Below, one piece after another: positions 50 to 31,240 of a DNA stretch of 33,201 bases. The notes under the pieces are model-generated. The model had not been told where the DNA came from and searched no databases. It was given only the letters and a program-made list of their open reading frames with translations. The stretch's first letter is position 1; the number at the start of each line of letters is the position of its first letter. Origin of the DNA: Campylobacterales bacterium (GTDB lineage: Bacteria > Campylobacterota > Campylobacteria > Campylobacterales > QNZT01). The stretch is taken from positions 1-33,201 of the forward strand of contig JAOZKZ010000004.1 of assembly GCA_029935075.1 (NCBI GenBank), read 5' to 3'. Made by a program: the position numbers and the translations under genes.

Positions 50-72
50 ATTATACCATAAAAGGGCTTAAA
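50..72 (-). promoter_or_regulatory. Early promoter, extended -10 type
   Basis: Minus strand reads TTTAAG, 11 bases, then TATAAT preceded by TGG (TGnTATAAT). Same architecture as fourteen other sites in this window. It points to the gene leaving the left edge. Confidence 0.65.
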
Positions 73-6771: not shown

Positions 6772-6960
6772 TTATAAAAAGTACTCAGGGTAATTTTCTA
6801 TTTGTTCCTCTGGGGTCATTCTTCTTACACTATCGGCATAATTTTTTGAGTTGGTATATGCATAATCATCAATGATGTTAAACTTCTTGTGTAATTTGTG
6901 ATTAAAAAACACACACTTCTCATCACCTATCAACATCACGGTTACTTGGAGTCTTTTCAT
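6772..6960 (-). CDS. Small early protein with the PEYFL C-terminal tail
   Basis: 62 residues, function unrecognised. It begins with a hydrophobic strand (MKRLQVTVMLIGDEKCVFF) and ends in MTPEEQIENYPEYFL. The last five residues (P-E-aromatic-aromatic-L) recur at the end of eleven other proteins in this window, ten of them clustered at 26940-29624. The ribosome site is AAGGGAT. It is the last gene of the early operon from the promoter at 7615 before the disrupted HD-Pnk start, so HD-Pnk was probably its downstream operon partner. Confidence 0.75.
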   Translation of the reverse strand: MKRLQVTVMLIGDEKCVFFNHKLHKKFNIIDDYAYTNSKNYADSVRRMTPEEQIENYPEYFL

Positions 6961-7614: not shown

Positions 7615-7637
7615 ATTATACCACACTTTGCCTTAAA
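7615..7637 (-). promoter_or_regulatory. Early promoter, extended -10 type
   Basis: TTTAAG-N11-TATAAT with TGTGG before the -10. Drives the 7587-to-6772 operon. Confidence 0.75.
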
Positions 7638-7674: not shown

Positions 7675-8184
7675 CTAATACTGAAACACATACCCTGCTA
7701 AAATCCAGATACTTTTCCAGTCATTATTTTTCATTAGCTCTTCATGACTAAGCCACACGACTCTTTTTTTATGTTTATCATTTAGTCCATTACAATCTAT
7801 CATGTACCCGTGGCAGTACTGGTTCATCTGGGTGGATACTAGTGTCTTTCCTATGTAATTGATACAATGCCCCGGGACATCAAACCCTGATTCCTCAAAG
7901 ACCTCTACCTTGGTTATTTCCTCTGGGTTTTTCCCAGGCATGTCAAAAGACCCACCAAAAGCAGTAGTCATTTTTACTCTTTTGTTTTCTCTTTCATCCA
8001 AGGGTGGCTTGGACTCGTTAATCAACCCGAACTTCCCGTCTCGGTAAAGAATAAATGCTACTGAGTCTTTCCCTGCCCTTTCTCCGTAGATATAGTACGA
8101 TTGGGCTCGCTTTACCGTGAAGTAAGGCTCGTTTTGGTGGTTCTTTTCCTCGGATTCGTAGAGAATTTCTGCTGTTCTTTTCAT
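7675..8184 (-). CDS. Nudix hydrolase-like protein with an atypical Nudix box
   Basis: 169 residues. Residues about 90-115 read GGSFDMPGKNPEE ... EVFEESGF, the G-x5-E-x7-RE-x2-EE-x-G-hydrophobic Nudix pattern. The first glutamate position carries Lys, the RE arginine is Val, and there is one extra residue. The metal-binding EExG end is intact. Nudix enzymes split nucleoside diphosphates linked to another group, or remove pyrophosphate from nucleotides or capped RNA; the substrate here cannot be read. Preceding strands (DSVAFILYRDGKFGLI) and a C-terminal VVWLSHEEL fit the fold. It lies next to the RNA-repair ligase region. Altered box residues could mean reduced or changed activity. Confidence 0.75.
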   Translation of the reverse strand: MKRTAEILYESEEKNHQNEPYFTVKRAQSYYIYGERAGKDSVAFILYRDGKFGLINESKPPLDERENKRVKMTTAFGGSFDMPGKNPEEITKVEVFEESGFDVPGHCINYIGKTLVSTQMNQYCHGYMIDCNGLNDKHKKRVVWLSHEELMKNNDWKSIWILAGYVFQY

Positions 8185-8191
8185 AATCCCT

Positions 8192-8404
8192 TTATCCTTT
8201 GTTTAAATTCATATCGTTTCTGTATACAACCCCACCAAGGACACTAACCCCTATAACAAAAAACAAAGGCACCAAGGCTTCACCAAAAATAGGCATGAGT
8301 ATAAAAAATAACCCTAAGCCTATTGTACCAAGAATACCAAAAAACAACCCTGTGGTCACAACAACCGTAAAAACTATCCCTGTGCCTGTTAAAAAATCTC
8401 TCAT
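8192..8404 (-). CDS. Two-span small membrane protein
   Basis: 70 residues, nearly all hydrophobic: two predicted membrane segments (about 8-38 and 42-60) ending GVSVLGGVVYRND. It resembles the protein at 10910-11101 (GVSLFGGVVFLS ... in the same place), so the two look like paralogues. Ribosome site AAAGGAAA. Function unknown; candidates are superinfection or membrane-remodelling proteins, but nothing in the sequence decides this. Confidence 0.65.
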   Translation of the reverse strand: MRDFLTGTGIVFTVVVTTGLFFGILGTIGLGLFFILMPIFGEALVPLFFVIGVSVLGGVVYRNDMNLNKG

Positions 8405-8413
8405 TATTTTCCT

Positions 8414-8521
8414 TTATTCAAAACTACCCACTAATGTAGGGTTTACCATAGCATGCTTAAGTGACCAATAACTAGAGAATATCACTATTACTATAATCAC
8501 TGCTATTACAAATTTATTCAC
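8414..8521 (-). CDS. Tiny single-span membrane protein (GTG start)
   Basis: A 35-residue frame starting at a GTG that overlaps the end of the ligase gene: MNKFVIAVIIVIVIFSSYWSL then a short polar tail. A single membrane helix with a positive N-terminus and tight coupling to the ligase stop favour a real gene; the ribosome site (GGGGGGT) is imperfect. Function unknown. Confidence 0.5.
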   Translation of the reverse strand: MNKFVIAVIIVIVIFSSYWSLKHAMVNPTLVGSFE

Positions 8522-9590
8522 CAGACCCCCCGAGGGCCTCTCTTAGTATCTCAGCTTTTATATAATCTCTTGTTATGTTACTGATGTATTTCTGGATGTC
8601 TTTAATCTCAAGATCATATTCCACAAAGCCTTGGGTTTCTTCTTTGATTACATCATTCAAGACCCATTTGATTATATTACCCATCATTTTAATTTCTAAT
8701 CTACCGCCATTATTAAGGTCTGCTACCTCTTGAATTCCCTGATTGAGTCTACAAACAGGCGTTACCTTCTCGGCTAGTTCTTGCTTTACCTGTTCAAGGG
8801 GGTCTTTTACCTTGGGTTGTTTTTCTTTGGTTCCTTTGGAATGAGATTCGCCTTTAACCTTGAAAATATACCTCTGGTTGTTATTATACCCTACAAAAAC
8901 TCCGCCTTCTCCAACACCGATATATCCCAATTCTCTGGCTACCGGGCACTCTTTATCCACCTTAAGGATGTATTCATTAATTTTGTTGTAGGCTTCCTTA
9001 GGGTCGTTAAAGTCTATAACGAACTTTTTTGTTTCAAAATCAAATAGATTATAGATACCTTTTTCAGGGTCGGTGAATTTTTCAATAATCTCTTTGGGGT
9101 TTTTTTCCCATGAGCCTTCTGTGGTATCCTCGTCATAGTTAACACTGGTGTATTTAACCCCAAAGACAAAGAAAGACTTTTTTAAGAGTTTGTTAATCCC
9201 TGTGTTTTTTTGAATCCCTGGTCCTGCGAACTCTCCCATCAAGGATACCTCTATTATACTACCGTCTCTTCTAATAGAATTTTCAAAAAGATCGTTTAAT
9301 TTCTCCGTGAAATAGTCTTCATTTTTCTGGACAAACATAGCAAACCCTGCGTTGTCCTTCATAGGGGTTATCTTTGAGCCTTTTGAATAAACCTTAAGGA
9401 AAATTCCATCATAAGCAACCCTGGCAAAAGTCCCGTGTAGTTTTACCGTGCTTTTGAACTCTATTTCAGGCAAAGGCAGGGTTTCGTCTGTAATGACAGT
9501 CCCGTCTACTTCTGTCCTGATGTAATAAGTCTCTCTTTTGATATCAAAAACGGTGTCCTCGAATTTACCAATACTTGTCATATTTGCCAT
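8514..9590 (-). CDS. RNA ligase (covalent nucleotidyltransferase family)
   Basis: 358 residues. It would seal 3'-OH and 5'-phosphate RNA ends through a ligase-AMP intermediate. Ordered motifs are visible: motif I KLHGT with the AMP-accepting Lys50, preceded by the STV strand; motif III-like GEFAGPGIQ (119-127); motif IIIa-like FFVFGVKY (140-147); motif IV EGGVFVG (228-234); motif V IFKVKGE (242-248). The C-terminal 100 residues are helical and probably form the RNA-specificity domain. This fits the Rnl group, and the subgroup is uncertain. The matching end-healing kinase/phosphatase is HD-Pnk at 4549-5610; in T4 the corresponding pair repairs tRNA cut by the PrrC nuclease. Ribosome site AAAGGAAA. 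Confidence 0.85.
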   Translation of the reverse strand: MANMTSIGKFEDTVFDIKRETYYIRTEVDGTVITDETLPLPEIEFKSTVKLHGTFARVAYDGIFLKVYSKGSKITPMKDNAGFAMFVQKNEDYFTEKLNDLFENSIRRDGSIIEVSLMGEFAGPGIQKNTGINKLLKKSFFVFGVKYTSVNYDEDTTEGSWEKNPKEIIEKFTDPEKGIYNLFDFETKKFVIDFNDPKEAYNKINEYILKVDKECPVARELGYIGVGEGGVFVGYNNNQRYIFKVKGESHSKGTKEKQPKVKDPLEQVKQELAEKVTPVCRLNQGIQEVADLNNGGRLEIKMMGNIIKWVLNDVIKEETQGFVEYDLEIKDIQKYISNITRDYIKAEILREALGGSGE

Positions 9591-9858: not shown

Positions 9859-9881
9859 ATTATACCATAAACTTGCTTAAA
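9859..9881 (-). promoter_or_regulatory. Early promoter, extended -10 type
   Basis: TTTAAG-N11-TATAAT with TATGG before the -10, upstream of the genes from 9830 through the RNA ligase. Confidence 0.75.
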
Positions 9882-12145: not shown

Positions 12146-12168
12146 ATTATACCACACTTTGCCTTAAA
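12146..12168 (-). promoter_or_regulatory. Early promoter, extended -10 type
   Basis: TTTAAG-N11-TATAAT with TGTGG before the -10; nearly identical over 30 bases to the site at 7615. Confidence 0.75.
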
Positions 12169-12187: not shown

Positions 12188-12673
12188 CTAAAGTAAAAAC
12201 TCAGGATACTTTGAACCTATCTCTTGGTATTTATTTCTTAATTCACCTTGGTTTTCTATGACTATTTTCCCGTCTTTATTAAAAATCCCTGATGGTACTT
12301 CATCATCTTCGTATCTATAATTACCAATCCAGCCCTCGGTTTCTATCCAAGGCTCTAGTACCTTAAGAAAATTTTCTATCTCCTCTTGGTAATTTTTAAT
12401 ATCAAAACGAGTAGTCAAAAAATACATAGGCTCATCGGGGTGTAAATCGTCTATTTCAAACTTAATAAAAGGAATCCCAGAGAAGTAATAAGAACTAGAG
12501 TTTCCTATGGTGCTGAGCCTTCCTTTTAATCCCTCCGGGGCTAATGATTCAGCTATTTCCCACCATCCTTCACTAAACCCTGTATTTGCCTGATAATCAA
12601 GCCATTTGAGTATCCCTTCAGGGGTGTCTTTTTTAAGTTCCGTTGCCAGGTAAAGTTCTGTGTACATTCCCAT
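12188..12673 (-). CDS. Conserved hypothetical (MGMYTEL type) ending in PEFLL
   Basis: 161 residues. The beginning MGMYTELYLATELKKDTPEGILKWLDY is recalled from a conserved phage and bacterial hypothetical family. Further on are SSSYYFSGIP and RFDIKNYQEEIENFLKVLEPWI, an alpha/beta layout. The last residues, SKYPEFLL, match the C-terminal tail consensus of eleven other proteins here although the body is larger and unrelated. Ribosome site AAGGAT. Confidence 0.75.
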   Translation of the reverse strand: MGMYTELYLATELKKDTPEGILKWLDYQANTGFSEGWWEIAESLAPEGLKGRLSTIGNSSSYYFSGIPFIKFEIDDLHPDEPMYFLTTRFDIKNYQEEIENFLKVLEPWIETEGWIGNYRYEDDEVPSGIFNKDGKIVIENQGELRNKYQEIGSKYPEFLL

Positions 12674-16246: not shown

Positions 16247-16390
16247 TTATTCACCTCTCCCATAATTAGCTTCTAATTCTTCCATTTCATAAAGAATATT
16301 CTTTGCAGATTCTTGCATACCGTTACTGATGAAATAATCATACTCTTTTTCCAGTTCTCTCATAATTTCTAAAAACTCATCTGGTGTCAT
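16247..16390 (-). CDS. Short helical early protein
   Basis: 47 residues (MTPDEFLEIMRELEKEYDYF ... ILYEMEELEANYGRGE), strongly helical and acidic. ATG 16390 overlaps the upstream stop by four bases, and the stop TAA is immediately followed by the next ATG. The start resembles MTPE/MTPD beginnings of two neighbours. No function recognised. Confidence 0.7.
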   Translation of the reverse strand: MTPDEFLEIMRELEKEYDYFISNGMQESAKNILYEMEELEANYGRGE

Positions 16391-16722
16391 TCTTGTTCCT
16401 TTAATATCCACTCACATGCTTTAAAAATAGCCTCAGGCTCGGAGTCTGCTATAAAATCAACCGAACTTGGAACCCCGAAGCCATAACCTGTTTCGGCTTC
16501 CCACATTCCTTTACCGTCATCAATGATCCTCGATGTGATACAATAAGGGAATTTTTGATTAAAAGCCCAGAGCTTACACTTATTAGCAAGCTCGTAGATA
16601 TTAATAAACATAGGCTTTTTTTGTTCTGCACTTTCAAAATATGCAGTAACTCTTGGATTTGCAAATTGACATTTGTATATATCCAGATCTAATACTTTAC
16701 TTAATAGTTTTTTACTTATCAT
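16387..16722 (-). CDS. Member of the ELANKCKEWA/EPEAIFKACEWIL family
   Basis: 111 residues with the three family blocks: MISKKLLSKVLD, INIYELANKCKLWAFNQKF and DSEPEAIFKACEWILKEQE. The intervening regions, including AETGYGFGVPSSVDF, are not shared with its paralogues. Behind its own early promoter at 16744. Function unknown. Confidence 0.75.
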   Translation of the reverse strand: MISKKLLSKVLDLDIYKCQFANPRVTAYFESAEQKKPMFINIYELANKCKLWAFNQKFPYCITSRIIDDGKGMWEAETGYGFGVPSSVDFIADSEPEAIFKACEWILKEQE

Positions 16723-16743: not shown

Positions 16744-16766
16744 ATTATACCATAACTTTGCTTAAA
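16744..16766 (-). promoter_or_regulatory. Early promoter, extended -10 type
   Basis: TTTAAG-N11-TATAAT with TATGG before the -10. Confidence 0.75.
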
Positions 16767-16781: not shown

Positions 16782-16964
16782 TTATTTTTGCTTGTTTTGT
16801 TCCTTTAGCTTTTCAACAAATTCAATGATGTCATCTACATCAAACGCTGAATCATTTTCGTAATCAGGGTGTTGAGTTATAGGGTAACATCCAATTTTTC
16901 TCATTTTAGTAAGAAGTTCTTTACGCTTAACTTCTTGAGTTTCTTCCATTTCTTTATAAGTCAT
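16782..16964 (-). CDS. Small hypothetical early protein
   Basis: 60 residues: helix MTYKEMEETQEVKRKELLTKM, a short loop (IGCYPITQHPDYE) and a C-terminal helix DVDDIIEFVEKLKEQNKQK. Charged and probably soluble. AGAGGG is present upstream; it overlaps the upstream gene by 11 bases. No family recognised. Confidence 0.65.
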   Translation of the reverse strand: MTYKEMEETQEVKRKELLTKMRKIGCYPITQHPDYENDSAFDVDDIIEFVEKLKEQNKQK

Positions 16965-17331
16965 GACCCTCTTTTATCTGATTTAGTATCCATTCACATG
17001 CTTTAAAAACTGCTTCTGGTTCTGTATCTCCTTGAAACACTGGTGGCAGTTCACCTACATCTGATACAAAATCATTTATAACAAAATTACTGTTTTCCCC
17101 AGCATAAGTATATTCAGAAACAAATCCCTGATTAAAAATCCATTCTTTACATTTATCAGCAAATTCATAGATATTGATGTACCCTCTGCCCCCATCTCTT
17201 GCGGCAACTATAGTCTTTCCAATTTTTGTTACATTATTGTATGTCCAACATATCTCGTTTTTTGGACAAAAAGATTCTATAGTTAGTATCTTAATATTGG
17301 TCACCTCACTTAATAGTTCTTTTGAAATCAT
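16954..17331 (-). CDS. Member of the ELANKCKEWA/EPEAIFKACEWIL family
   Basis: 125 residues, the longest member. Blocks: MISKELLSEVTN, INIYEFADKCKEWIFNQGF and DTEPEAVFKACEWILNQ. The first inter-block region contains an insert (CPKNEICWTYNNVTKIG) absent from the others. Behind its own early promoter. Function unknown. Confidence 0.75.
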   Translation of the reverse strand: MISKELLSEVTNIKILTIESFCPKNEICWTYNNVTKIGKTIVAARDGGRGYINIYEFADKCKEWIFNQGFVSEYTYAGENSNFVINDFVSDVGELPPVFQGDTEPEAVFKACEWILNQIKEGHDL

Positions 17332-17508: not shown

Positions 17509-17971
17509 ATAGTATCCTTTTGGCTTTTTCTAAATCCTGGTGTTGGAGCCCTGTTTTCATATCCACTTCTACCACAAATTCTCTGGGGATGGTGTCACAA
17601 TAATCCCCACAAACATCAATAATCTCATCCTCGAGGACTACATATTTTCCGGTGTAGTTGTTCTCATCAAGCCATGCCTGAATCTCGTCTCCTCTATACC
17701 TTAAGTCTTTGGTGTAAGGTGTACACCCTATTACTTTGTCCCAGTTCTTGAACCCGTTCTTTTCCATTTGTATTTTTAGGTCTTCCATATCCAGTCGCCA
17801 TGATGATGAAATCACTACCTCGGATTTGGTCTGATCTATAAGCCAGTCTAATCTTTTTATCAAATGGCTCTCAAACCAGATGGTATTTCCATCAGGCTGA
17901 ATCATACAGGTGTTGTAAGATTCGCTTAGTATGTTAATAATCCCGTCACAGTCAATTATCAATAGACTCAT
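17498..17971 (-). CDS. HAD-family phosphatase (RNA-repair-associated HAD type)
   Basis: 157 residues from ATG 17971 (CAGGAGAA upstream; an extension to 17989 overlaps the previous gene more). HAD motif I DCDG (7-10), motif II SSSWR (55-59), RGDEIQAWL near 93-101 and motif IV-like LEDE (113-116) are in order. The WR after motif II and the EIxxWL helix are typical of the HAD group found in multi-domain RNA-repair proteins. It may remove 3' or cyclic phosphates, as the HAD half of T4 Pnkp does, but nucleotide phosphatase activity is also possible. Overlaps the upstream family member by four bases. Confidence 0.75.
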   Translation of the reverse strand: MSLLIIDCDGIINILSESYNTCMIQPDGNTIWFESHLIKRLDWLIDQTKSEVVISSSWRLDMEDLKIQMEKNGFKNWDKVIGCTPYTKDLRYRGDEIQAWLDENNYTGKYVVLEDEIIDVCGDYCDTIPREFVVEVDMKTGLQHQDLEKAKRILYDN

Positions 17972-18309
17972 TTGTTCTCCTGTATCCACTCTGTTGCTGA
18001 GAATATAGCATCTGGTTCACTATCCCCGTAAAATTGATTAGCATTTTTATCAGAACCTGTTCCTATTTGAACCACATAAAAATGATTAACATCTTTAAGG
18101 TCTAATATATCTGGTCTTATCTTTATATACAAAGCATACCCTTGTTCAAATGCCCACTCTTTACACTTATGGGCAAGCTCGTATATGTTAATAGAAGAGA
18201 CATTAAAAGCCCCTTTGACAAACAGTTGAATATTAACCTGCCCTTCTGTGTAATATGGCATTGTGCATTCATAGCCTAATACCTCGCTTAATAGTTCATG
18301 TTTGATCAT
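17968..18309 (-). CDS. Member of the ELANKCKEWA/EPEAIFKACEWIL family
   Basis: 113 residues: MIKHELLSEVLG, INIYELAHKCKEWAFEQGY and DSEPDAIFSATEWIQENK. The last block is partly changed (ACEWIL to ATEWIQ). The gene is translationally coupled to the HAD gene downstream. Function unknown. Confidence 0.75.
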   Translation of the reverse strand: MIKHELLSEVLGYECTMPYYTEGQVNIQLFVKGAFNVSSINIYELAHKCKEWAFEQGYALYIKIRPDILDLKDVNHFYVVQIGTGSDKNANQFYGDSEPDAIFSATEWIQENK

Positions 18310-18548: not shown

Positions 18549-18869
18549 TCATTTTTGATCATTTTGCTCCATTATGTATTCACAGGCTTTAAAAATAGCT
18601 TCTGGTTCGGTGTCTGCTGTAAACTGTTCTTCAAAATTTTCTTGTTTAACGACTACTTGCCATTGTGTGTAGGTGTCAAACATTATTAATTTTGATAATA
18701 TAAACCCTTTCGATTTAACAGCCCATTCTTTACACTTATTAGCCAATTCGTAGATGTTAATCCCTCTAGTTTTGTGTAACCCAGTGCCATAATAGACAAT
18801 ATTTCTGGTTATTTTGAGCTGGTTTATATCCTTGTCTAAGACCTTTTGTAACAGTGCTTTTGAAATCAT
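18549..18869 (-). CDS. Member of the ELANKCKEWA/EPEAIFKACEWIL family
   Basis: 106 residues: MISKALLQKVLD, INIYELANKCKEWAVKSKGF and DTEPEAIFKACEYIMEQND. The central variable part (LIMFDTYTQWQVVVKQENF) differs from its paralogues. Behind the early promoter at 18890. Function unknown. Confidence 0.75.
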   Translation of the reverse strand: MISKALLQKVLDKDINQLKITRNIVYYGTGLHKTRGINIYELANKCKEWAVKSKGFILSKLIMFDTYTQWQVVVKQENFEEQFTADTEPEAIFKACEYIMEQNDQK

Positions 18870-18889: not shown

Positions 18890-18912
18890 ATTATACCACA
18901 AAAGACCTTAAA
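18890..18912 (-). promoter_or_regulatory. Early promoter, extended -10 type
   Basis: TTTAAG-N11-TATAAT with TGTGG before the -10. Confidence 0.75.
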
Positions 18913-23609: not shown

Positions 23610-25124
23610 ATGAACAAAAAATATCAAAGTTTGATTGAATCAACTAAATACGCACCCCTTGATGAAGGGCAACAAAACACACTAGCCGCTGTAATGGAAG
23701 CTACTGCTAAAGAAACTGAAAGAATGATCGCTGAGGGAACAATCGCAGCGGATGTGGCCCAGTTTACGCCATTTTTAATGCCTATGCTAAGAAAAGTATA
23801 CCCAGCATTAGTAGCTAATGAACTCCTTGGTGTACAACCATTGAGTGGTCCTACTGGATTTATTTACTCATTGACTAACAGACTAGTCGGTAGTGCTAAC
23901 AATGGTCTTACTAAGCCAGGAACAAACGAGGGGCTTAACGGACCTAGTATGTATAACAAAACTAACGCGGCTACTCAGATTCTATTGGTAGATGCTTTTA
24001 CAGCGGCTGACCTTGGTAAAACAATCATCGTTGGTGGTATTACTGCTACTGTTGTATATGGTGAACCTGCTGCACACGGTGCTCTTGGTAGTAACTATCC
24101 TGCTGGTCAAATTGTAGGAAATAGTGTTGGTGGTGCTGAGGTTGGTGCTCAAGATGGTACTTCATTTGGTATCTTGGTAGAACTTCCAGCTAATACTTAC
24201 TATGGTAGAACTGGTGTAATCGTTCCTGCTAGTGGTGGTGATGTTACTGGTACTGCTACTGCTACTGCTGTTATTGCTTCATTTACTGGACTGGCAGCAT
24301 GGGACAAAATTCTTCCTAACTATAGTGGTTCTTATGTTACTGCTAATGGTGAGACAAGAGGTGTAGTCGGTAACGAAATGAACGAAGTAGGAATCGCTGT
24401 TGAGCGTACTCAAGTAGAAGCGAAGACTAGAAAGCTCAGAGCCGAGTATACAATCGAAATGTATCAAGACTTGAAAGCAATGCATGGTGTACTAGCGGAT
24501 CAAGAGCTTATGAGCCTTATGGGATACGAAATCAAAGCTGAAACAGACCGTGAAGTAGTAGATTTCGTTAACTCAAGAGCAGGCATCGAAGGCGACTTCT
24601 TTATGGATGGTTCTTATGATGGTACTGTTGGCACTCCTGCTATTTCTTCAGGTAGATGGGAAATTGAGAGATACAGAGCACTAGCGATTAAAATTGCTGA
24701 TATGTCAAGAAACATTGGTAGATTGAACAAAAGAGGCGCGGCTAACAAGCTTCTAGTTTCTCCTAAAGTTCTTACAGCACTTGAAGCAATGGGTTCTTTT
24801 ACTACTGCTCCTATTGATACTACTGTTAGTACTCAGAACTTGAACCCTGTTGCTGGTAGATTTGACAACAAGTATAATGTTATTGTTGATAATTATGCTG
24901 ATAATGGTGACTATGTTACTGCTATCTACAAAGGATCCAATCAGGACAGTTTGGGTGTTTATGCTCCTTATACTCCTGTTCAGATTCAGAAAGTGACTCA
25001 TGTAACGACTGGTCAGCCAGCATTGATTGCAATGTCGCGCTATGGTTTAGCCGAAAATCCATGGGGTGGTCAGAATTATGCGACTTCAATGGGAATTCAA
25101 TTCCAAAATACCGTACTTCAGTAG
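23610..25124 (+). CDS. 23: Major capsid protein gp23
   Basis: 504 residues, close to T4 gp23 (521). Forms the hexamers of the head shell. The leader should be cut by gp21 after Glu42 (I-A-E before Gly). The mature protein begins GTIAADVAQFTPFLMPMLRKVYPALVANELLGVQPLSGPTGFIYSL, the classic gp23 signature. A gly/thr-rich insert lies near residues 125-235, and the C-terminus ends in the family-typical RYGLAENPWGGQNYATSMGIQF. The coding sequence uses markedly more of a restricted codon set than neighbouring genes (for example GGT, ACT, GCT), fitting high expression. A terminator follows the stop. Confidence 0.97.
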   Translation: MNKKYQSLIESTKYAPLDEGQQNTLAAVMEATAKETERMIAEGTIAADVAQFTPFLMPMLRKVYPALVANELLGVQPLSGPTGFIYSLTNRLVGSANNGLTKPGTNEGLNGPSMYNKTNAATQILLVDAFTAADLGKTIIVGGITATVVYGEPAAHGALGSNYPAGQIVGNSVGGAEVGAQDGTSFGILVELPANTYYGRTGVIVPASGGDVTGTATATAVIASFTGLAAWDKILPNYSGSYVTANGETRGVVGNEMNEVGIAVERTQVEAKTRKLRAEYTIEMYQDLKAMHGVLADQELMSLMGYEIKAETDREVVDFVNSRAGIEGDFFMDGSYDGTVGTPAISSGRWEIERYRALAIKIADMSRNIGRLNKRGAANKLLVSPKVLTALEAMGSFTTAPIDTTVSTQNLNPVAGRFDNKYNVIVDNYADNGDYVTAIYKGSNQDSLGVYAPYTPVQIQKVTHVTTGQPALIAMSRYGLAENPWGGQNYATSMGIQFQNTVLQ

Positions 25125-25246: not shown

Positions 25247-26938
25247 ATGATAACCAACACAGAAGATTTTATTAAGAAAAGCAATATTGTTCATAAAAAT
25301 AAATATACATATAACAAAACATCATACATAAATACACACACAAAAGTAACCATAACATGCCCTGTGCATGGTGATTTTGAACAAAAACCCGTAAATCATT
25401 TAAATAGTAATGGGTGTTCCAAATGCTCTAATAAATACAAAAGAACACAAGAAGAATTTATAAATGAGTGTTTAATAAAACACCAAGGTTTTTATAGTTA
25501 TGGTGATGTGGTATATAAAAACCAAAAATCAAAAATAACCATAACATGCCCTGTGCATGGTGATTTTGAACAAACAGCATCAGATCATCTTTCTGGTTCT
25601 GGTTGTAGTGAATGTAGAAAAATCTATTTATCTAATAAATTTAAAAAGAGTCAAGAAAAATTTATAAATGAGTGTTTAATAAAACACCAAGGTTTTTATA
25701 GTTATTTACATACTAATTACGATAATTCATACTCAAAAATAACAATAACATGCCCTGTGCATGGTGATTTTGAACAAGTCGCCAAGGATCATCTTTCTGG
25801 TTCTGGTTGTAGTGAATGTGCACAAATTAAATTAAATAGACAATATATAAATCAGGGGTCCAATACACAAGAATTTATCCAAAAAGCAAAAATAACACAT
25901 AAAAACAAGTATAATTATGATAAAGTGGAATACAAATCTAGCCAAGAAAAGGTTTGTATTACTTGCCCAAAGCATGGTGATTGGGATACAAGACCAGATA
26001 ATCATATTAATGCAGGCTCTGGTTGTCCAAAATGTTCCAATAATATCTCAAAACCAGAGCAAGATATAGCAGATTTTATCAGGGATAATTACAAAGGAAC
26101 GGTAATTCAAAATGACAGGGTTGTTTTGAATGGTAAAGAATTGGATATTTATCTGCCTGATCTTGGGTTTGCCATAGAATATAATGGGCTGATGTGGCAT
26201 AGTTTCGGTAAACACAAGTCTGAAAAATTTGATAATTATTCTCTTGTACATGGGAATAAAAACAACCACTTAATCAAGACCAAAGAATGTGAAAAAAAGG
26301 GTATTCAGTTGTTTCATATTTTTGAAAATGAATACACCCAGAAGCAGGATATATGGTTGAATATAATCAAGGATAAACTACAAAAAAACCAAAAAATCGG
26401 GGCAAGAAAAACCACAATAAAAGAAATAACCCCGAAAGAACAAAGAGATTTTGAGAACAATAACCACTTACAGGGACAAGGCTTAAGCAGTATACGAATA
26501 GGTCTATTTTATGAACAAGAGTTAGTATCTTTAATGACATTTGGCAAGGCAAGGTTATCAAAAAAATATCAATACGAGATGATTAGATTTTGCTCAAAGA
26601 TAGGGTATACTATTCAAGGAGCAGCTTCAAAAATATTAAATTATTTTGAAAAAAAATACAACCCCTTGAGTATAGTATCTTATGCCAATAGAAGATACTC
26701 TGTGGGTAATTTATATAACCAATTAGGGTTTAAACTAGAGCATACATCCAAGCCAAATTTTTTCTATTTTGACAGGGAATATATACTATATAGTAGACAA
26801 AAATTTCAAAAACATAAACTTAAAAAAGAGTTAGAATTTTTTGATAATAACAAAACAGCCCTGATGAATATGTTTGATAATGACTACAGAGTTATCTACG
26901 ATTCTGGAAATATGGTGTTTGTGAAAGAATATTCATAA
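25247..26938 (+). CDS. VSR-like homing endonuclease with four zinc-binding repeats
   Basis: 563 residues. Four N-terminal repeats (about 14-62, 70-125, 137-192, 208-262) carry TCPVHGDFEQ ... GC-x-x-C, the same CxxH/CxxC module as the protein at 1158-2234. Repeats two and three share more than 40 identical bases, a recent duplication. Next is a PD-(D/E)xK-type domain of the VSR group: DRVVLNGKELDIYLPDLGFAIEYNGLMWHS and HIFENEY. The C-terminal 180 residues (TPKEQRDFENNNHLQGQ ... LVSLMTFGKARL ... MIRFCSKIGYTIQGAASKIL) resemble an acetyltransferase-like domain often attached to this endonuclease type. It stands alone after gp23 and ends one base before the converging gene. Unlike the other endonucleases it has an early-type promoter. 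Confidence 0.8.
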   Translation: MITNTEDFIKKSNIVHKNKYTYNKTSYINTHTKVTITCPVHGDFEQKPVNHLNSNGCSKCSNKYKRTQEEFINECLIKHQGFYSYGDVVYKNQKSKITITCPVHGDFEQTASDHLSGSGCSECRKIYLSNKFKKSQEKFINECLIKHQGFYSYLHTNYDNSYSKITITCPVHGDFEQVAKDHLSGSGCSECAQIKLNRQYINQGSNTQEFIQKAKITHKNKYNYDKVEYKSSQEKVCITCPKHGDWDTRPDNHINAGSGCPKCSNNISKPEQDIADFIRDNYKGTVIQNDRVVLNGKELDIYLPDLGFAIEYNGLMWHSFGKHKSEKFDNYSLVHGNKNNHLIKTKECEKKGIQLFHIFENEYTQKQDIWLNIIKDKLQKNQKIGARKTTIKEITPKEQRDFENNNHLQGQGLSSIRIGLFYEQELVSLMTFGKARLSKKYQYEMIRFCSKIGYTIQGAASKILNYFEKKYNPLSIVSYANRRYSVGNLYNQLGFKLEHTSKPNFFYFDREYILYSRQKFQKHKLKKELEFFDNNKTALMNMFDNDYRVIYDSGNMVFVKEYS

Positions 26939-26939
26939 G

Positions 26940-27227
26940 CTATAAGTAATACTCAGGGTATTCCTTGATTCCTTCCTCTTCCGTAAAAAACTTCAAAATC
27001 AGGTTATTAGGTATAAGATGACCCGTTTTCTTTTCTGTGTTGACTAGTCTTGCTAATTTTTGGCTGAATTTTCTCCTGTGTATCCAGAACAACCCATCCA
27101 AGAAATCCTTATGGTAATCGTAGATTTCTTCAGGGGTTTTCCTAAACACAAGAAGATTTTCAAGCCGTTTTTTATAGAGCTTTTTTGATATGGTCTTGAT
27201 AAGATACTTGCCTTTTTTTGTTTCCAT
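26940..27227 (-). CDS. Early protein with the PEYYL C-terminal tail
   Basis: 95 residues, basic: METKKGKYLIKTISKKLYKKRLENLLVFRKTPEEIYDYHKDFLDGLFWIHRRKFSQKL ... ending EGIKEYPEYYL. The body is unrelated to its neighbours apart from the tail. Ribosome site AAGGAGA. Last gene of the operon; its stop is one base from the converging endonuclease stop. Function unknown. Confidence 0.75.
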   Translation of the reverse strand: METKKGKYLIKTISKKLYKKRLENLLVFRKTPEEIYDYHKDFLDGLFWIHRRKFSQKLARLVNTEKKTGHLIPNNLILKFFTEEEGIKEYPEYYL

Positions 27228-27236
27228 TTCTTCTCC

Positions 27237-27485
27237 TTATAAGTAATACTCAGGGTGGTCTTCTATGGGAACTTCTCTTACTAAGTTAAACCTAGCCATG
27301 TCTTGGTCAAGATTCATCGTTATTATATATGCCCCATCATCCCATGTGTCTTGTGTCTTGTTTAATCCAGGGTCAGAGGCATGGACAAATTCTCCTAGTA
27401 TACCCCATTCTATGTGTTTTTTTGATATGATTTTCACCACAGAGTTATCCTCGGTGTAATAAAACCGTTTTGCTTTTATTTCCAT
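27237..27485 (-). CDS. Early protein with the PEYYL C-terminal tail, small beta domain
   Basis: 82 residues with a beta-rich layout (KRFYYTEDNSVVKIISKKHIEWGILGEFVHA ... DDGAYIITMNLDQDMARFNLVREVPIEDHPEYYL). The RFNLVREVPIEDHPEYYL ending parallels HFDLVKRVTVKDNPEYFL at 27967, so these two probably share a fold. Ribosome site AAAGGAAC. Function unknown. Confidence 0.75.
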   Translation of the reverse strand: MEIKAKRFYYTEDNSVVKIISKKHIEWGILGEFVHASDPGLNKTQDTWDDGAYIITMNLDQDMARFNLVREVPIEDHPEYYL

Positions 27486-27495
27486 TTAGTTCCTT

Positions 27496-27735
27496 TCATA
27501 GGTAGTACTCCGGGTATTCTCCTGGGGTGATTTTTCTTATCACTGAATTATCAATAAAAAACTCAAAGTAGTGTAGCTCTTGCTCGTTCAATACACCTTT
27601 TAAGACCTTTTTTATGGTTATGGTCTCGTATTCATCCTTTTGGCAGATAAAACCGTACTCAGGGTTTGTAAAAAGGTAGTCCTGCCGGGGTTCCATATCA
27701 TTGTGTGTCTGTATATCCTCTGGTATATTTGTCAT
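27496..27735 (-). CDS. Early protein with the PEYYL C-terminal tail
   Basis: 79 residues, mostly beta and acidic: YLFTNPEYGFICQKDEYETITIKKVLKGVLNEQELHYFEFFIDNSVIRKITPGEYPEYYL. The last eleven residues (ITPGEYPEYYL) are identical to those of the next gene upstream, with near-identical DNA there, suggesting local duplication of the 3' end. Start overlaps the upstream stop by four bases. Confidence 0.75.
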   Translation of the reverse strand: MTNIPEDIQTHNDMEPRQDYLFTNPEYGFICQKDEYETITIKKVLKGVLNEQELHYFEFFIDNSVIRKITPGEYPEYYL

Positions 27736-27944
27736 AGGTAGTACTCCGGGTATTCTCCCGGGGTGATTTTTTTAATCACAATATCATCCTTTATTAACAC
27801 ATACCCTTTGTCTTTACCCTTGATATATAATCGTTTATTCATTAGTCTTGTTATTACACATATATTGTTACTCAGGTGTCCTTCTTTACATACCCAGGTG
27901 AACTCGGCATTTACTAGGTCAAGGGCTTTCATTTTAATACACAT
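27732..27944 (-). CDS. Early protein with the PEYYL C-terminal tail
   Basis: 70 residues, ATG 27944 with AGGAGA upstream. Beta-rich: LVNAEFTWVCKEGHLSNNICVITRLMNKRLYIKGKDKGYVLIKDDIVIKKITPGEYPEYYL. Its tail is identical to that of 27496-27735. The IVIKKITPGEYPEYYL end follows an IRKITPGEYPEYYL pattern. Function unknown. Confidence 0.75.
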   Translation of the reverse strand: MCIKMKALDLVNAEFTWVCKEGHLSNNICVITRLMNKRLYIKGKDKGYVLIKDDIVIKKITPGEYPEYYL

Positions 27945-27966
27945 CTGTTCTCCTATAAGATCTCTT

Positions 27967-28188
27967 TCAAAGAAAGTATTCAGGGTTGTCTTTAACAGTG
28001 ACTCTTTTTACAAGGTCAAAATGATGTTCTTGTTCCCAATACTTGCCTTGTAGGGTAAAAGCATATTGTTTCTCATTGGTGTTACATATTACAGGATAAC
28101 TAATACCGTCTTGTATTTCTGTTACTTGGAGTAGTTCGTTCTGCCTTGTTACATAATACTCATTTACTTTAATATTCATATCTTTCAT
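27967..28188 (-). CDS. Early protein with the PEYFL C-terminal tail, small beta-barrel-like domain
   Basis: 73 residues. VNEYYVTRQNELLQVTEIQDGISYPVICNTNEKQYAFTLQGKYW ... HHFDLVKRVTVKDNPEYFL is the layout of small phage SH3-like or YopX-like domains (strand, GxxYPVxC, FTLxGxYW), a fold family with no fixed role. The start overlaps the upstream stop by four bases; a second ATG lies three codons in. Confidence 0.7.
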   Translation of the reverse strand: MKDMNIKVNEYYVTRQNELLQVTEIQDGISYPVICNTNEKQYAFTLQGKYWEQEHHFDLVKRVTVKDNPEYFL

Positions 28189-28484
28189 AGGTAGTACTCT
28201 GGGTACAAGGACATCACCATGTCCTTTGCTGTAGGGTGGTTCATAATAATTTTAATGAGCCTGAATGCCCTCATGTCCGCTTCGCCATTGATATCAAGAT
28301 GTATACTCGTTTCTATCTGGTTGGGGTTTTTACATGCTATGTCATCTATCTCAACACTATTTTGGTCTTTGTCCGTGACTATTGCTATGGTAACAGCATC
28401 ATTTGAATCCTCCCCATCATTATACATGTACATTACTATGTCATTTATTTTCACATCGTGCCAGCTTGGTGATTTTGGGGTCAT
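28185..28484 (-). CDS. Early protein with the PEYYL C-terminal tail
   Basis: 99 residues. VKINDIVMYMYNDGEDSNDAVTIAIVTDKDQNSVEIDDIACKNP ... MRAFRLIKIIMNHPTAKDMVMSLYPEYYL: a beta barrel-like start, then a helix before the tail. Ribosome site AGGAGA. Function unknown. Confidence 0.75.
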   Translation of the reverse strand: MTPKSPSWHDVKINDIVMYMYNDGEDSNDAVTIAIVTDKDQNSVEIDDIACKNPNQIETSIHLDINGEADMRAFRLIKIIMNHPTAKDMVMSLYPEYYL

Positions 28485-28492
28485 TTGTTCTC

Positions 28493-28777
28493 CTATAGGT
28501 ACATCTCGGGGTACTTTTCAATATCAAAGTAAATAAAACTATAATAATCTTTTATATGACTTAGGCTTTTCTTGTGTACTGTCCATCTTTCTCTGGTATT
28601 AGCTGAGTTTGGTCCCCAATCGGGTATATCAATGTCTTTAAAACACACCTCTTCAGGGTCAAGGAAATACATATCACTATTTTTTTCCCATTTCGTTTTG
28701 CCAGTCAGGCTAGAATATTTAATAAGATACATCCCTTCTTTGAAGTCTTTGAACTCATTTATTCTTGTGCCTTTCAT
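28493..28777 (-). CDS. Early protein with the PEMYL C-terminal tail
   Basis: 94 residues. INEFKDFKEGMYLIKYSSLTGKTKWEKNSDMYFLDPEEVCF ... KSLSHIKDYYSFIYFDIEKYPEMYL: beta-rich, possible small barrel. The tail has Met instead of an aromatic at one position. Start overlaps the upstream stop by four bases. Function unknown. Confidence 0.75.
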   Translation of the reverse strand: MKGTRINEFKDFKEGMYLIKYSSLTGKTKWEKNSDMYFLDPEEVCFKDIDIPDWGPNSANTRERWTVHKKSLSHIKDYYSFIYFDIEKYPEMYL

Positions 28778-29130
28778 AGAAAATACTCGGGGTATCGCTT
28801 AATCATACCTTTTGTGCAAAAATTGTAAAAATGTTTTATGTTTTTTAGTTCGTTTTTAACTATGTCTCTGTTGAAATACATCTCATCATCAGTCTCATTA
28901 TACCTATAACCCCTTACGAAAAAATCATTAGGATATCGGCAGAATTCGTTTACTTTATGAAAAATAGTAAACCCTTTGGTGTAATATATGGATTTAGTAA
29001 GCTTTAGGGACAAGTATTCTTGTCCCTTTACTTTTACTATACACATAGGCACAACGGTGTTTTCTGCTTTGACATCCAATAATCCATAGTAATCTGAATC
29101 ATTCAGGCTGAATATTCTATCCTCATGCAT
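28774..29130 (-). CDS. Early protein with the PEYFL C-terminal tail
   Basis: 118 residues, the largest of this cluster. An N-terminal strand-rich part (RIFSLNDSDYYGLLDVKAENTVVPMCIVKVKGQEYLSLKLT) is followed by a Tyr/Asn-rich helical part ending FYNFCTKGMIKRYPEYFL. Ribosome site AAGGAT; directly behind the early promoter at 29156, so it heads an eight-gene operon. Function unknown. Confidence 0.75.
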   Translation of the reverse strand: MHEDRIFSLNDSDYYGLLDVKAENTVVPMCIVKVKGQEYLSLKLTKSIYYTKGFTIFHKVNEFCRYPNDFFVRGYRYNETDDEMYFNRDIVKNELKNIKHFYNFCTKGMIKRYPEYFL

Positions 29131-29155
29131 CTTAATCCTTCTTTAAATATACCTT

Positions 29156-29178
29156 ATTATACCACAAAAAAGCTTAAA
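29156..29178 (-). promoter_or_regulatory. Early promoter, extended -10 type
   Basis: TTTAAG-N11-TATAAT with TGTGG before the -10; heads the 29130-to-26940 operon. Confidence 0.75.
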
Positions 29179-29184
29179 AAGAGC

Positions 29185-29436
29185 TTAAAGGAACCTTTCT
29201 GGGTAATTTTGTATTAACAAGTCTCTTAACATATCATCGGATAACCAAGGGTACTCATGTCCTTTTAAAAAATTCTCGAAGTCTTCTATTGATTTGATGC
29301 CCTTGGTCTCGTATACCTCTATTGTACAGTCTACTTCTAAAGACTTCAGAGAAGGTACTGAGATATTAGATCCAAGGCAAGAGTATTGGTTAACATCACG
29401 GGTATTTATTGATATATCTTTTACTCTGTAATTCAT
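29185..29436 (-). CDS. Early protein with the PERFL C-terminal tail
   Basis: 83 residues. Beta-rich first half (MNYRVKDISINTRDVNQYSCLGSNISVPSLKSLEVDCTIEVY), helical second half (SIEDFENFLKGHEYPWLSDDMLRDLLIQNYPERFL). The tail has Arg in place of the first aromatic. The start overlaps the upstream stop by four bases. Confidence 0.75.
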   Translation of the reverse strand: MNYRVKDISINTRDVNQYSCLGSNISVPSLKSLEVDCTIEVYETKGIKSIEDFENFLKGHEYPWLSDDMLRDLLIQNYPERFL

Positions 29437-29624
29437 AGCAAGTACTCCGGGTGTTCTTTTACAAGGCTTTTATGAGTCATTTTGAACCCCCTGTCATTAA
29501 GCTCCAGCAAGACCAGTCTCATCACGGTGGTAAACAGACCCCTGGTGTAGTCGATAAAATACTCATTGATAAGTTCTTTTTTACTCAGTGTTTTCATTGT
29601 TTTTGTTGTTTGTCTTGACCTCAT
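29433..29624 (-). CDS. Early protein with the PEYLL C-terminal tail
   Basis: 63 residues, basic and helical: MKTLSKKELINEYFIDYTRGLFTTVMRLVLLELNDRGFKMTHKSLVKEHPEYLL. ATG 29624 has AAAGGAAC upstream; a second ATG lies nine codons in. First gene behind the promoter at 29648. Function unknown. Confidence 0.75.
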   Translation of the reverse strand: MRSRQTTKTMKTLSKKELINEYFIDYTRGLFTTVMRLVLLELNDRGFKMTHKSLVKEHPEYLL

Positions 29625-29647: not shown

Positions 29648-29669
29648 ATTATACCACAATAACCTTAAA
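29648..29669 (-). promoter_or_regulatory. Early promoter, extended -10 type
   Basis: TTTAAG-N10-TATAAT with TGTGG before the -10. Back-to-back with the late promoter at 29686, like the pair at 19312/19351. Confidence 0.7.
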
Positions 29670-29685
29670 ACACCCTTATTAGTTT

Positions 29686-30166: not shown

Positions 30167-30349
30167 ATGAAGATTGTATCGTCTTTGGTAATCATGGGTA
30201 TATCATGGATGGTATATACCACGGTAGAAACCAAAGGACACCTCAGGTTAATCGAATACAAACTAGACCAGAACAATATAATCTTACAAAATTTATATGA
30301 AACAAAACAAAACAAAACAAAACAAAACAAGGAACAAAATGACATTTAA
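30167..30349 (+). CDS. Small single-span membrane protein
   Basis: 60 residues from ATG 30167 (AAAGGA 7 bases upstream; a GTG at 30143 lacks one). MKIVSSLVIMGISWMVYTTV is one membrane helix, then a helical tail HLRLIEYKLDQNNIILQNLYE and a low-complexity end (TKQNKTKQNK) encoded by an AAAAC repeat. Position after the peptidase-like gene would suit a lysis accessory such as a holin, but the evidence is only topology and context. Confidence 0.6.
   Translation: MKIVSSLVIMGISWMVYTTVETKGHLRLIEYKLDQNNIILQNLYETKQNKTKQNKEQNDI
30300..30330 (+). repeat. AAAAC pentanucleotide microsatellite
   Basis: About six tandem AAAAC units inside the 3' end of the small membrane protein gene, just before the start at 30339. 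Because units are five bases, copy-number change shifts frame. Confidence 0.9.
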
Positions 30350-30833
30350 AAACTACATCAAGCAGAACATACAAGAAGATACAAACAAACAAGAGTTCAT
30401 AGAAAATGTGACCAAAAGCTTCAAGAAGCACTTTCCGAATGGATTTATAAGCCTTAGTGATAAAAGCCAATTTGGGAGTGATTTGATCTCTGGGACTTTT
30501 GGAATGATTGGGAACCTTAAGGACAATACCTCAGGCATCCCTGGTAATGATAAAATGAAGCACTCTTTTATGATGTTTAAGAACCCCGGGACAGAGCCAG
30601 AGACATATAAGTTTGAAGGTCAAGGCAGGATTTACACCAATCCTGAAAAGGGCTCCTTTAATGCCATGGATTCAATCAAGACCAAGTTAGGCAACAATTC
30701 CAAGATTACATTAGAAAAAGCCCAGATAAAATTAGAGAAATTCTTTAAAAAGCTCTCTGGGTTAATGAAAGACAACAAAGATAACATATTCGGTGTTGAA
30801 GATATAGACAAGAAATACCTTGTGTTTAAATGA
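30339..30833 (+). CDS. Putative internal head protein, late paralogue of 14183-14635
   Basis: 164 residues from ATG 30339 (AAGGAAC upstream; the frame stays open through the AAAAC repeat to 30297 but has no better site). N-terminus MTFKNYIKQNIQE resembles a capsid-targeting leader with a candidate gp21 site I-Q-E at residue 13. The rest (EFIENVTKSFKKHFPNGF ... NPEKGSFNAMDSIKTKLGNN ... FFKKLSGLMKDNKDNI) is homologous to the early protein at 14183-14635, which lacks the leader. Possibly packaged and injected. Four-base overlap with the next gene. Confidence 0.7.
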   Translation: MTFKNYIKQNIQEDTNKQEFIENVTKSFKKHFPNGFISLSDKSQFGSDLISGTFGMIGNLKDNTSGIPGNDKMKHSFMMFKNPGTEPETYKFEGQGRIYTNPEKGSFNAMDSIKTKLGNNSKITLEKAQIKLEKFFKKLSGLMKDNKDNIFGVEDIDKKYLVFK

Positions 30834-31240
30834 TAAATTTTAAAAAATACCTGAAAGAAGTTGTCAGCCAAGATTGCTCAACAGGTTCAGGGGTAATACC
30901 AGATGGTCCTTATCAAAGTTGGGTAGTCATTCGGACAAACCACCTTGATTCTCCAAGACCACCATCCGAAAGACCAAGAGACTACGGTTGGGAATGTGAT
31001 GATTTTGAAGATGTAGTAACAGCATTTTTGAAAAAACGACCAATGGGCATCAAAGACGGCAAATATCTTATAGAATGGAAAAATAAAAAAGGATATCAAT
31101 GTTTAGTAATGAATATAGACAATAAAAGGAAAGAAATGACCGTTATTACTATGATTCAACTTAACAAAAAATCCTCAGGGGGTTATAATGCTTCAGGGGC
31201 TAAGTTTATAGGGATAGGTAATATAAATATTCCAGACTAA
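30830..31240 (+). CDS. Late protein with a capsid-targeting-like leader
   Basis: 136 residues. MINFKKYLKE is leader-like, with candidate cleavage L-K-E at residue 10. The remainder is unrecognised: SWVVIRTNHLDSPRPPSERPRDYGWECDDFEDVV, then a beta-rich part KYLIEWKNKKGYQCLVMNIDNKRKEMTVITMIQL and a gly/ser C-terminus. A possible small enzyme or RNase-like toxin fold is only a guess from the strand pattern. Start overlaps the previous stop (ATGA). Confidence 0.65.
   Translation: MINFKKYLKEVVSQDCSTGSGVIPDGPYQSWVVIRTNHLDSPRPPSERPRDYGWECDDFEDVVTAFLKKRPMGIKDGKYLIEWKNKKGYQCLVMNIDNKRKEMTVITMIQLNKKSSGGYNASGAKFIGIGNINIPD

Follow-up and report, generated by a model that had tools for sequence, protein, structure and literature searches.

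We begin by considering a puzzle posed by this window (the whole stretch of 33,201 nucleotides that was analysed): why should neighbouring small genes, with bodies that do not resemble each other, close with the same short peptide directly before the stop codon? The ten open reading frames that a sequence-only reading had pointed to are all present on the minus strand with the endings it gave (Table 1), and 10/10 share the ending PE[YMR][YFL]L. The tag reaches further than had been reported: it is found on two more window genes, and contigs C307, C132, C63, C1 and C3 of this MAG add another 25. Both gene runs of the cluster are preceded by a promoter-like site; the label "early" for these genes is one that we infer. 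At the DNA level the cluster matches none of 50,697 phage records, the ten cluster proteins have no reliable hit in Pfam or PHROG, and a search for capsid relatives in GTDB genome contigs finds none.

Table 1. Tagged genes and associated elements in the window, and the genes of the candidate reader on another contig of the MAG
Feature	Position	Strand	Remarks
Tagged gene, 63 aa	29433..29624	-	C-terminus HPEYLL; ATGA overlap with next gene
Tagged gene, 83 aa	29185..29436	-	C-terminus YPERFL
Tagged gene, 118 aa	28774..29130	-	C-terminus YPEYFL; ATGA overlap with next gene
Tagged gene, 94 aa	28493..28777	-	C-terminus YPEMYL
Tagged gene, 99 aa	28185..28484	-	C-terminus YPEYYL; ATGA overlap with next gene
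Tagged gene, 73 aa	27967..28188	-	C-terminus NPEYFL
Tagged gene, 70 aa	27732..27944	-	C-terminus YPEYYL; ATGA overlap with next gene
Tagged gene, 79 aa	27496..27735	-	C-terminus YPEYYL
Tagged gene, 82 aa	27237..27485	-	C-terminus HPEYYL
Tagged gene, 95 aa	26940..27227	-	C-terminus YPEYYL; end of run, same strand without a gene after it
Tagged gene beyond the cluster, 161 aa	12188..12673	-	C-terminus YPEFLL
Tagged gene beyond the cluster, 62 aa	6772..6960	-	C-terminus YPEYFL
Putative dual-use element CCGGAGTACTTGCTATGA	29433..29450	-	P-E-Y-L-L-stop; GGAG 8 bases 5' of the overlapping ATG
Promoter-like site TTTTAAG-N9-TGGTATAAT	29648..29670	-	Upstream of the run's first gene; sequence only
Promoter-like site TTTTAAG-N9-TGGTATAAT	29156..29178	-	Upstream of 28774-29130; sequence only
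F1, MoxR-type AAA+ ATPase	C132:8183-9307		This MAG
F2, zincin-metallopeptidase-vWA (DUF2201) protein	C132:32806-34089		This MAG

The next question is "does the same ending exist in other phages?" The tag is found in many of them, with the consensus [YHF]-P-E-x-[FYL]-[LIV]-COOH or, more widely, [hydrophobic]-x-x-x-[YHF]-P-[E/Q]-x-[F/Y/L]-[L/I/V]-COOH. Its form is genome-specific, the last residue or the choice of Glu or Gln being characteristic of each genome: the final residue is L in G018, V in G008 and I in both G022 and the Vibrio phage phiKT1024, while G009 and G033 use PQ/PH..I. The tagged fraction reaches about a quarter of the proteins in some large phages (10-25%), as in phiKT1024 (77/341 called genes), G022 (51/180 genes) and G027 (24/83 genes matching the pattern). 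Almost all carriers are small proteins that are unrelated to each other and have no assigned function; in phiKT1024, 0/79 genes with an assigned function are tagged, and all the annotated virion proteins are among those 79. By chance, any given three-residue end pattern is expected in 0.01-0.05 genes per genome, and P[EQ]xx[ILVMF] ends 1/2,415 genes of the control phage contigs. At the C-terminus, PExx[ILV] occurs 166 to 496 times as often as within proteins. The repeated C-termini of Campylobacter phage CP21 proved misleading, because they come from an 85-bp tandem repeat that is translated seven times. No published description of the tag was found in the open-access literature.

Could the tail be simply the end that a single family has conserved, or a 3' end spread by recombination from a gene duplication? 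Some pairs do match slightly further upstream (e.g., I[KR]KITPGEYPEYYL in 27496 and 27732), and G007 and G009 contain true paralogue groups. When the bodies are clustered with the last 7 residues cut off (E<=1e-3), however, the 12 tagged proteins of the window fall into 12 separate clusters, with the closest pair reaching only E=0.006, and the 322 tagged proteins form 270 homology clusters, of which 242 have a single member. Synonymous codons differ between tags, and orthologues at 22-34% identity retain the tag in the local form: in a nucleotidyltransferase-like family it is kept by 6/6 members, as PE in four and as PQ or PH in those of G009 and G033. Body relatives in other genomes mostly keep the tag in this manner, recast in the new genome's form; one tagged family (members of 241 and 232 aa) has no relatives in phage records or IMG/VR. 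The bodies are dissimilar, as had been claimed, and neither a single full-length family nor random loss of the tag among relatives, the two outcomes that the claim had been staked against, is what we find. One homologous family is rejected, and descent from a common end keeps next to no probability.

Alternatively, the element may belong to the DNA or RNA only, with the Shine-Dalgarno sequence and start of the next gene (CCGGAG...NTATGA) incidentally spelling PE..L. Four cluster genes overlap the downstream neighbour by ATGA, and the Glu codon of the tag in this MAG is GAG in 31/37 cases as compared with 34% genome-wide. Where the stop overlaps an ATG, Glu is written GAG 129 times and GAA 16 times, against GAG 57 and GAA 145 elsewhere (odds ratio 20, P 2e-31), and in G004 residue -2 is relaxed chiefly in overlapping genes. 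The Glu codon is therefore not neutral, as the codon argument of the sequence-only reading had taken it to be, but the rest of that argument stands, with Pro written in all four codons and the peptide selected. Most tags are not overlapped by the start of a following gene (45/77 in phiKT1024), the PQ of G009 uses CAA, and the last gene of the run (26940-27227) is tagged though the same strand carries no gene after it. In non-overlapping tags the codons follow the background and the peptide is still present; because the codons relax outside overlaps while the peptide stays, selection acts on the tag peptide. Translational coupling as the sole cause is rejected by these non-overlapping tags and is very improbable, but it stands as a second layer, in which the GAG of overlapping tags can double as a Shine-Dalgarno sequence for the next gene.

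We turn our attention to what might read a peptide of this kind. In an unbiased clustering of all genes, only F1 and F2 are present in the ten tagged contigs and absent from the eight untagged ones; profile searches of whole records find both in 6/6 tagged records of at least 100 kb and in 0/4 untagged T4-like records of 154-183 kb. T4-like relatives that lack F1/F2 also lack the tag. A prediction made from F1/F2 was borne out: phiKT1024, whose F1/F2 are the closest among cultured phages, is heavily tagged, and there are 52 sites with the tag pattern and 0 control sites in its relative Va1. Among loci picked by F2, the tag is found in 14/17 at 390 bits or more and in 0/62 below 220 bits; with the contigs previously found by tag or capsid set aside, the comparison is 5/8 to 0/62. 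The tagged F2 proteins from these loci (14/14) form one clade with a support of 100/99, and this F1/F2 clade is common to tagged phages, T4-like and N4-like alike. The latter are represented by G022, an AD45/N4-like podovirus by its portal, capsid, gp68 and gp69, which has 11 gene clusters in common with the T4-like core, including F1 and F2. The tag thus co-occurs with and adjoins F1/F2, whose genes often have tagged genes as neighbours, and in T4-like phages some of the co-occurrence may be simple common descent. Alteromonas phage AD45 has F1/F2 of the tag-linked clade, yet only 3/144 called genes are tagged, and G036 (306 kb) has an F2 of the clade and no tag excess. AR9, MTATph1 and LUZ7 carry more distant F1/F2 pairs and no tag, and therefore the MoxR/zincin-vWA machine has other uses.

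F1 is assigned to the MoxR type by PF07728 AAA_5 (34.9 and 42.0 bits, cut-off 22), and its G..GK and DE are invariant in nine members. The vWA domain of F2 is matched by PF09967 and PF13203, both above cut-off, and its MIDAS motif D-x-SGS is present in all clade members. The metal site HExxHxxxxH runs across the clade with the exception of G027 and its near-copy L251, in which HNxxH replaces HExxH; because the genes of G027 are tagged nevertheless, F2 proteolysis is not essential there. A PDB sequence search gives no usable template for F1 or F2. The low-confidence predicted structure of F2 has its best match in the vWA complex of NorQ-NorD, a MoxR-vWA machine. F2 relatives are plentiful in IMG/VR, at least 535 among the 600 candidate stretches examined.

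Combining this information, we lean slightly towards the tag as a genome-encoded C-terminal recognition signal that would be read by the phage's own F1/F2 AAA+ machine. Tens of small accessory proteins would carry the signal, F2 or the pore of F1 would bind the tail with its free carboxylate, and the F1 hexamer would pull on the tagged protein, leading to its unfolding, remodelling or clipping. The outcome would be one phage switch for a whole class of unrelated effectors (timing, removal or activation). The earlier suggestion that a single partner recognises the free C-terminus as a signal for docking or stability fits all the tests, and the partner is what we infer. What is added is that the tag is genome-wide, extends across unrelated phages, goes with a MoxR/zincin-vWA pair and has a Glu codon that can serve as a ribosome-binding site at overlaps.

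A real protein signal may also have another reader, a host protease, an adaptor with affinity for hydrophobic C-termini or another phage protein, acting in degradation, localisation or virion packaging, with F1/F2 only co-travelling in the accessory gene pool. The few or missing tags of AD45 and G036 speak for it, as do the ClpP-like proteases encoded in phiKT1024 and AD45 and the similarity of the tail to known C-terminal degrons, which have a hydrophobic C-terminus. We nevertheless regard it as rather doubtful, though a serious contender: in the gene clustering F1 and F2 alone match the distribution of the tag across T4-like and N4-like phages, differences in tag form between phages are more simply explained if the reader is phage-encoded, and the packaging version has to face the untagged virion proteins of phiKT1024. 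A sliding-clamp-binding motif is suggested by the aromatic-hydrophobic extreme C-terminus in T4-like phages, since the C-termini of T4 gp43 and gp55 bind the clamp. The polymerases of these same phages, however, end in a different motif, (L/I)D-x-W or similar (LDEW, IDEW, IDIW, LDDW), and clamp binding is rejected as highly unlikely.

The tag and its candidate reader F1/F2 can be compared with known systems. Like ssrA/ClpXP and other C-terminal degrons, the phage tag is short and hydrophobic, sits at the C-terminus of unrelated proteins and is possibly read by an AAA+ unfoldase. The ssrA peptide is added by tmRNA and ends in Ala-Ala, whereas the phage tag is encoded within each gene, has Pro-Glu at -5/-4 and ends PE.[FYL][LIV]; its candidate reader is a MoxR-vWA pair rather than ClpX, and its form varies by genome. 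The T4 capsid-targeting sequence likewise gives small phage proteins that are unrelated to each other a short common end, but it is N-terminal and marks head-packaged proteins, while the phage tag is C-terminal and no known virion protein carries it. RavA-ViaA, NorQ-NorD and CbbQ-CbbO resemble F1/F2 in joining a MoxR AAA+ ATPase to a vWA protein, and F2 differs from them by an extra N-terminal zincin domain. To our knowledge, MoxR-vWA pairs are remodellers and not tag-directed proteases, which we count as a point against F1/F2 as the reader; those known to us have one or a few targets, and we know of no substrate tag for them. In group 2.2 jumbo phages, a pair made of MoxR and a metallopeptidase-vWA protein (PMC7824862) is equal in architecture to F1/F2 and very likely a distant relative. 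The role proposed for it, virion assembly and structural protein processing (PMC7824862), contrasts with the absence of the tag from every annotated virion protein of phiKT1024. The jumbo phage Atu_ph07 has a distant F1 and no tag.

We give an even chance to a self-contained viral tag-and-reader system, in which up to a quarter of the proteome, the fast-evolving accessory effectors, would be marked and an AAA+/zincin-vWA machine would handle the class by one rule, with T4-like and N4-like phages sharing tag and reader and the tag form specific to the genome. Phage genes are mostly small and unique, have no assigned function and are studied singly. A common tag would place 10-25% of the genes in these phages in one commonly controlled class, and scanning C-termini as text is enough to find its members. 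The tag would also give a testable function, with predicted substrates, to the widespread and uncharacterised MoxR/zincin-vWA pair. The system could also provide a new pair of tag and reader for controlling proteins, and the idea is open to testing in cultured Vibrio phages.

We begin with the cluster of ten small minus-strand genes in the window, contig C199 of a 2.4-Mb metagenome bin (G000). This is a T4-like phage contig with a gp23-type capsid protein, and its best cultured relatives are Vibrio and Campylobacter phages. All ten genes end in PE[YMR][YFL]L before the stop, and two further window genes carry the tag. Another 25 tagged genes of the bin lie on contigs C307, C132, C63, C1 and C3, each at the end of an open frame and, within any one contig, on a single strand; the pattern shows no excess in the host part of the bin. 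The coordinates of the features are collected in the table below.

Features of the window and of related contigs, with positions in the contig or locus named
Feature	Contig or locus	Position	Strand	Basis
Ten-gene tagged cluster	window	26940-29624	-	
Further tagged genes	window	6772-6960; 12188-12673		
gp23-type capsid protein	window	23610-25124		
Homing-endonuclease-like proteins	window	25247-26938; 1158-2234	+	
Paralogues of about 110 aa	window	16387-16722; 16954-17331; 17968-18309; 18549-18869	-	
Proteins beginning M-x-(F)-K-x-Y-(L/I)-K-x	window	30830-31240; 30297-30833	+	
Protein beginning M-x-(F)-K-x-Y-(L/I)-K-x	window	3785-4528	-	
Promoter-like site TTTAAG-N9-TGGTATAAT	window	e.g. 29648-29670; 29156-29178; 18890-18912; 16744-16766; 12146-12168; 9859-9881; 7615-7637; 50-72	-	sequence
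F1	C132 (outside window)	8183-9307		
F2	C132 (outside window)	32806-34089		
F2 with HNxxH	L194 (G027)	7930-9156		
Host MoxR and DUF2201 pair	C93 (G000)	2519-4500		

Several other features of the window are seen. The homing-endonuclease-like proteins have repeated CPxHGDFEQ...C..C modules, and one of the two genes forms an insertion that separates the capsid gene from the tagged cluster. The related paralogues (INIYELA.KCKEWA) are untagged and lie on the strand of the tagged genes. A promoter-like site recurs on the minus strand, mostly just upstream of small genes, with 12 copies of its core TGGTATAAT on that strand and two on the plus strand; it is probably the early promoter. Near structural genes, three proteins start in a way similar to the T4-type N-terminal capsid-targeting sequence.

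In the pooled sets, the tag has a hydrophobic residue at about -10, then K/E/D, Y/H/F at -6, P at -5, E at -4, Y or L at -3, F/Y/L at -2 and L/I/V at -1. Each genome has its characteristic last residue and acid: L ends the tag in the window phage, G004, G018 and G020, V in G008 (mostly) and G031, and I in G022 and Vibrio phage phiKT1024, while G009 has a PQ/PY/PH..I form, G033 a PQ/PH..I form, and G007, G021 and G027 mixed forms.

Can chance or homology of the bodies give such a tail? The expected count for any given three-residue C-terminal pattern is 0.01-0.05 per genome. xPExxL ends number 30 in the sampled contigs of the window phage and 52 in G018, xPExxI ends 49 in G022, and control phage contigs hold one such end among 2,415 genes. 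The gene sets behind these counts and behind the clusters below come from our own simple longest-ORF caller, uncurated. The enrichment statistic can be misled by tandem repeats, as in Campylobacter phage CP21, where the repeated C-termini are an artefact of one 85-bp repeat translated seven times; this does not apply to the window tag. A single homologous family is ruled out as the source, since 322 tagged proteins from seven phages, with the tail removed, form 270 homology clusters, of which 242 have a single member, and the 12 window proteins form 12. The sequence-only reading, which had described one tail on ten dissimilar bodies, holds on both points. Random loss of the tail among relatives, which would have spoken against selection, is contradicted by a six-member nucleotidyltransferase-like family that keeps it in 6/6 members with bodies 22-34% identical to the first; its G009 and G033 members show PQ and PH, the forms typical of those two genomes. 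By its sequence behaviour, the tag looks like a tail that tracks a reader. Separately, G007 (L101, L102, L106, L110, L111) and G009 (L114, L119, L120, L122, L123) encode paralogous long proteins with TSLEGAPEVV.G.F.CS.N repeats, most of them tagged, whose copy number varies between phages.

The next question is whether the element is a peptide or a nucleic acid signal. In many cases a tagged gene and its downstream neighbour overlap at ATGA; CCGGAG then lies 8 bases before the new ATG, an ordinary Shine-Dalgarno position. Across ten pooled tag sets, Glu is written GAG 129 : GAA 16 where stop and ATG overlap and 57 : 145 elsewhere; in phiKT1024 the ratios are 28:4 and 8:37, where GAG makes up 21% of the background. 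G009 mostly has Gln at this position, written CAA, which is unable to act as a Shine-Dalgarno. In the window phage the GAG share stays high even without overlap (17:3), an exception not fully explained. The same codons thus double as a ribosome-binding site when needed, and the peptide persists otherwise. On these codon counts selection acts on the peptide, as had been proposed from the window, with RNA use as a second layer.

We turn to the candidate reader. When all genes of 19 tagged or related contigs and 8 untagged contigs are clustered, exactly two families occur in ten tagged and zero untagged contigs: F1, a MoxR-type AAA+ ATPase (PF07728), and F2, a DUF2201 protein with a putative zincin metallopeptidase (HExxHxxxxH) and a vWA-like domain (MIDAS D-x-SGS). 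In whole-record profile searches both are present in 6/6 tagged records of at least 100 kb, and neither is found in the four untagged T4-like records (154-183 kb). Control stretches were read for tags (80 kb each of G014 and G015, 40 kb of G016, 21 kb of G017), and a DNA pattern search of the whole records of these controls finds none. From the common tag form, composition and relatives, we infer that C132, which carries the pair, and C199 are one phage. Tagged genes often, though not in every phage, directly adjoin F1 or F2. A distant MoxR and DUF2201 pair, the two side by side, is also encoded in the host part of the bin.

Among cultured phages, the nearest carrier of F1/F2 is phiKT1024. A link between tag and pair predicts tagged genes in this phage, and 77 of its 341 called genes have the tag; 73 of these are below 150 aa, and 0 of 79 proteins with assigned function are tagged (Fisher P = 9e-11). 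In Vibrio phage Va1 the tag pattern occurs at 52 sites, versus 0 in the control. In the closely related phage Pv27, 75% of ORFs are hypothetical, and the term "C-terminal" is absent from the text of that paper (PMC12063606). A second ending, -(L/I)D-x-W or similar, is found on DNA polymerase (L220/L233 of phiKT1024, L113, L115, L183, L189), and RNase H, Dam and others have related endings in W; it is likely a clamp-binding motif, separate from the tag.

Among 79 IMG/VR loci retrieved on F2 alone, 14 of the 17 at or above 390 bits (including L243, detected with a slightly wider tag pattern) carry one or more tagged genes within about 20 kb, versus 0/62 below 220 bits (P = 5e-13), some of the 17 being known beforehand by tag or capsid. 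Of eight distinct high-F2 loci not so known, five are tagged versus 0/62, three with a single tag only. The G037 locus is untagged, and its whole record has 8 pattern sites versus 1 in the control. The F2 tree places all 14 tagged rows in one clade of 21 (support 100/99).

T4-like phages that carry the clade pair are tagged, and T4-like phages lacking it are untagged, an association that may partly be common descent. G022 is not T4-like because its portal, capsid, gp57-, gp68- and gp69-like proteins are those of N4-like phage AD45; 51 of its 180 genes end PExx[ILV], and it has 11 gene clusters in common with the T4-like core, F1 and F2 included. Of the N4-like phages, G022 (clade pair) is tagged and LUZ7 (distant pair) untagged. 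No tag excess is seen in cultured AR9, MTATph1 and LUZ7 (distant F1/F2) or Atu_ph07, GAP32 and CRP-7 (distant F1). Alteromonas phage AD45 has clade-type F1/F2, yet 3 tags in 144 genes (HPEYFL, WPEYCL, APELLL), and G036 (306 kb) has clade F2 and no tag excess.

In group 2.2 jumbo phages, Iyer and co-workers noted a MoxR protein paired with a metallopeptidase-vWA protein, for which they suggested a role in virion assembly (PMC7824862); this role does not account for the tag, since the annotated virion proteins of phiKT1024 are untagged. In MoxR-vWA machines such as RavA-ViaA, the vWA protein is the partner that links the AAA+ ATPase with its target (PMC3893208). NorQ-NorD, another such machine, is the structure that the F2 model matches best (E = 2.9e-4; model of moderate confidence, pLDDT 76, pTM 0.52). 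The tag would be a handle for the F1/F2 machine. The zincin site of F2 suggests clipping of tagged proteins; in G027, where F2 (like L251) has HNxxH instead of HExxH and the contig retains many tags, unfolding or remodelling would be favoured.
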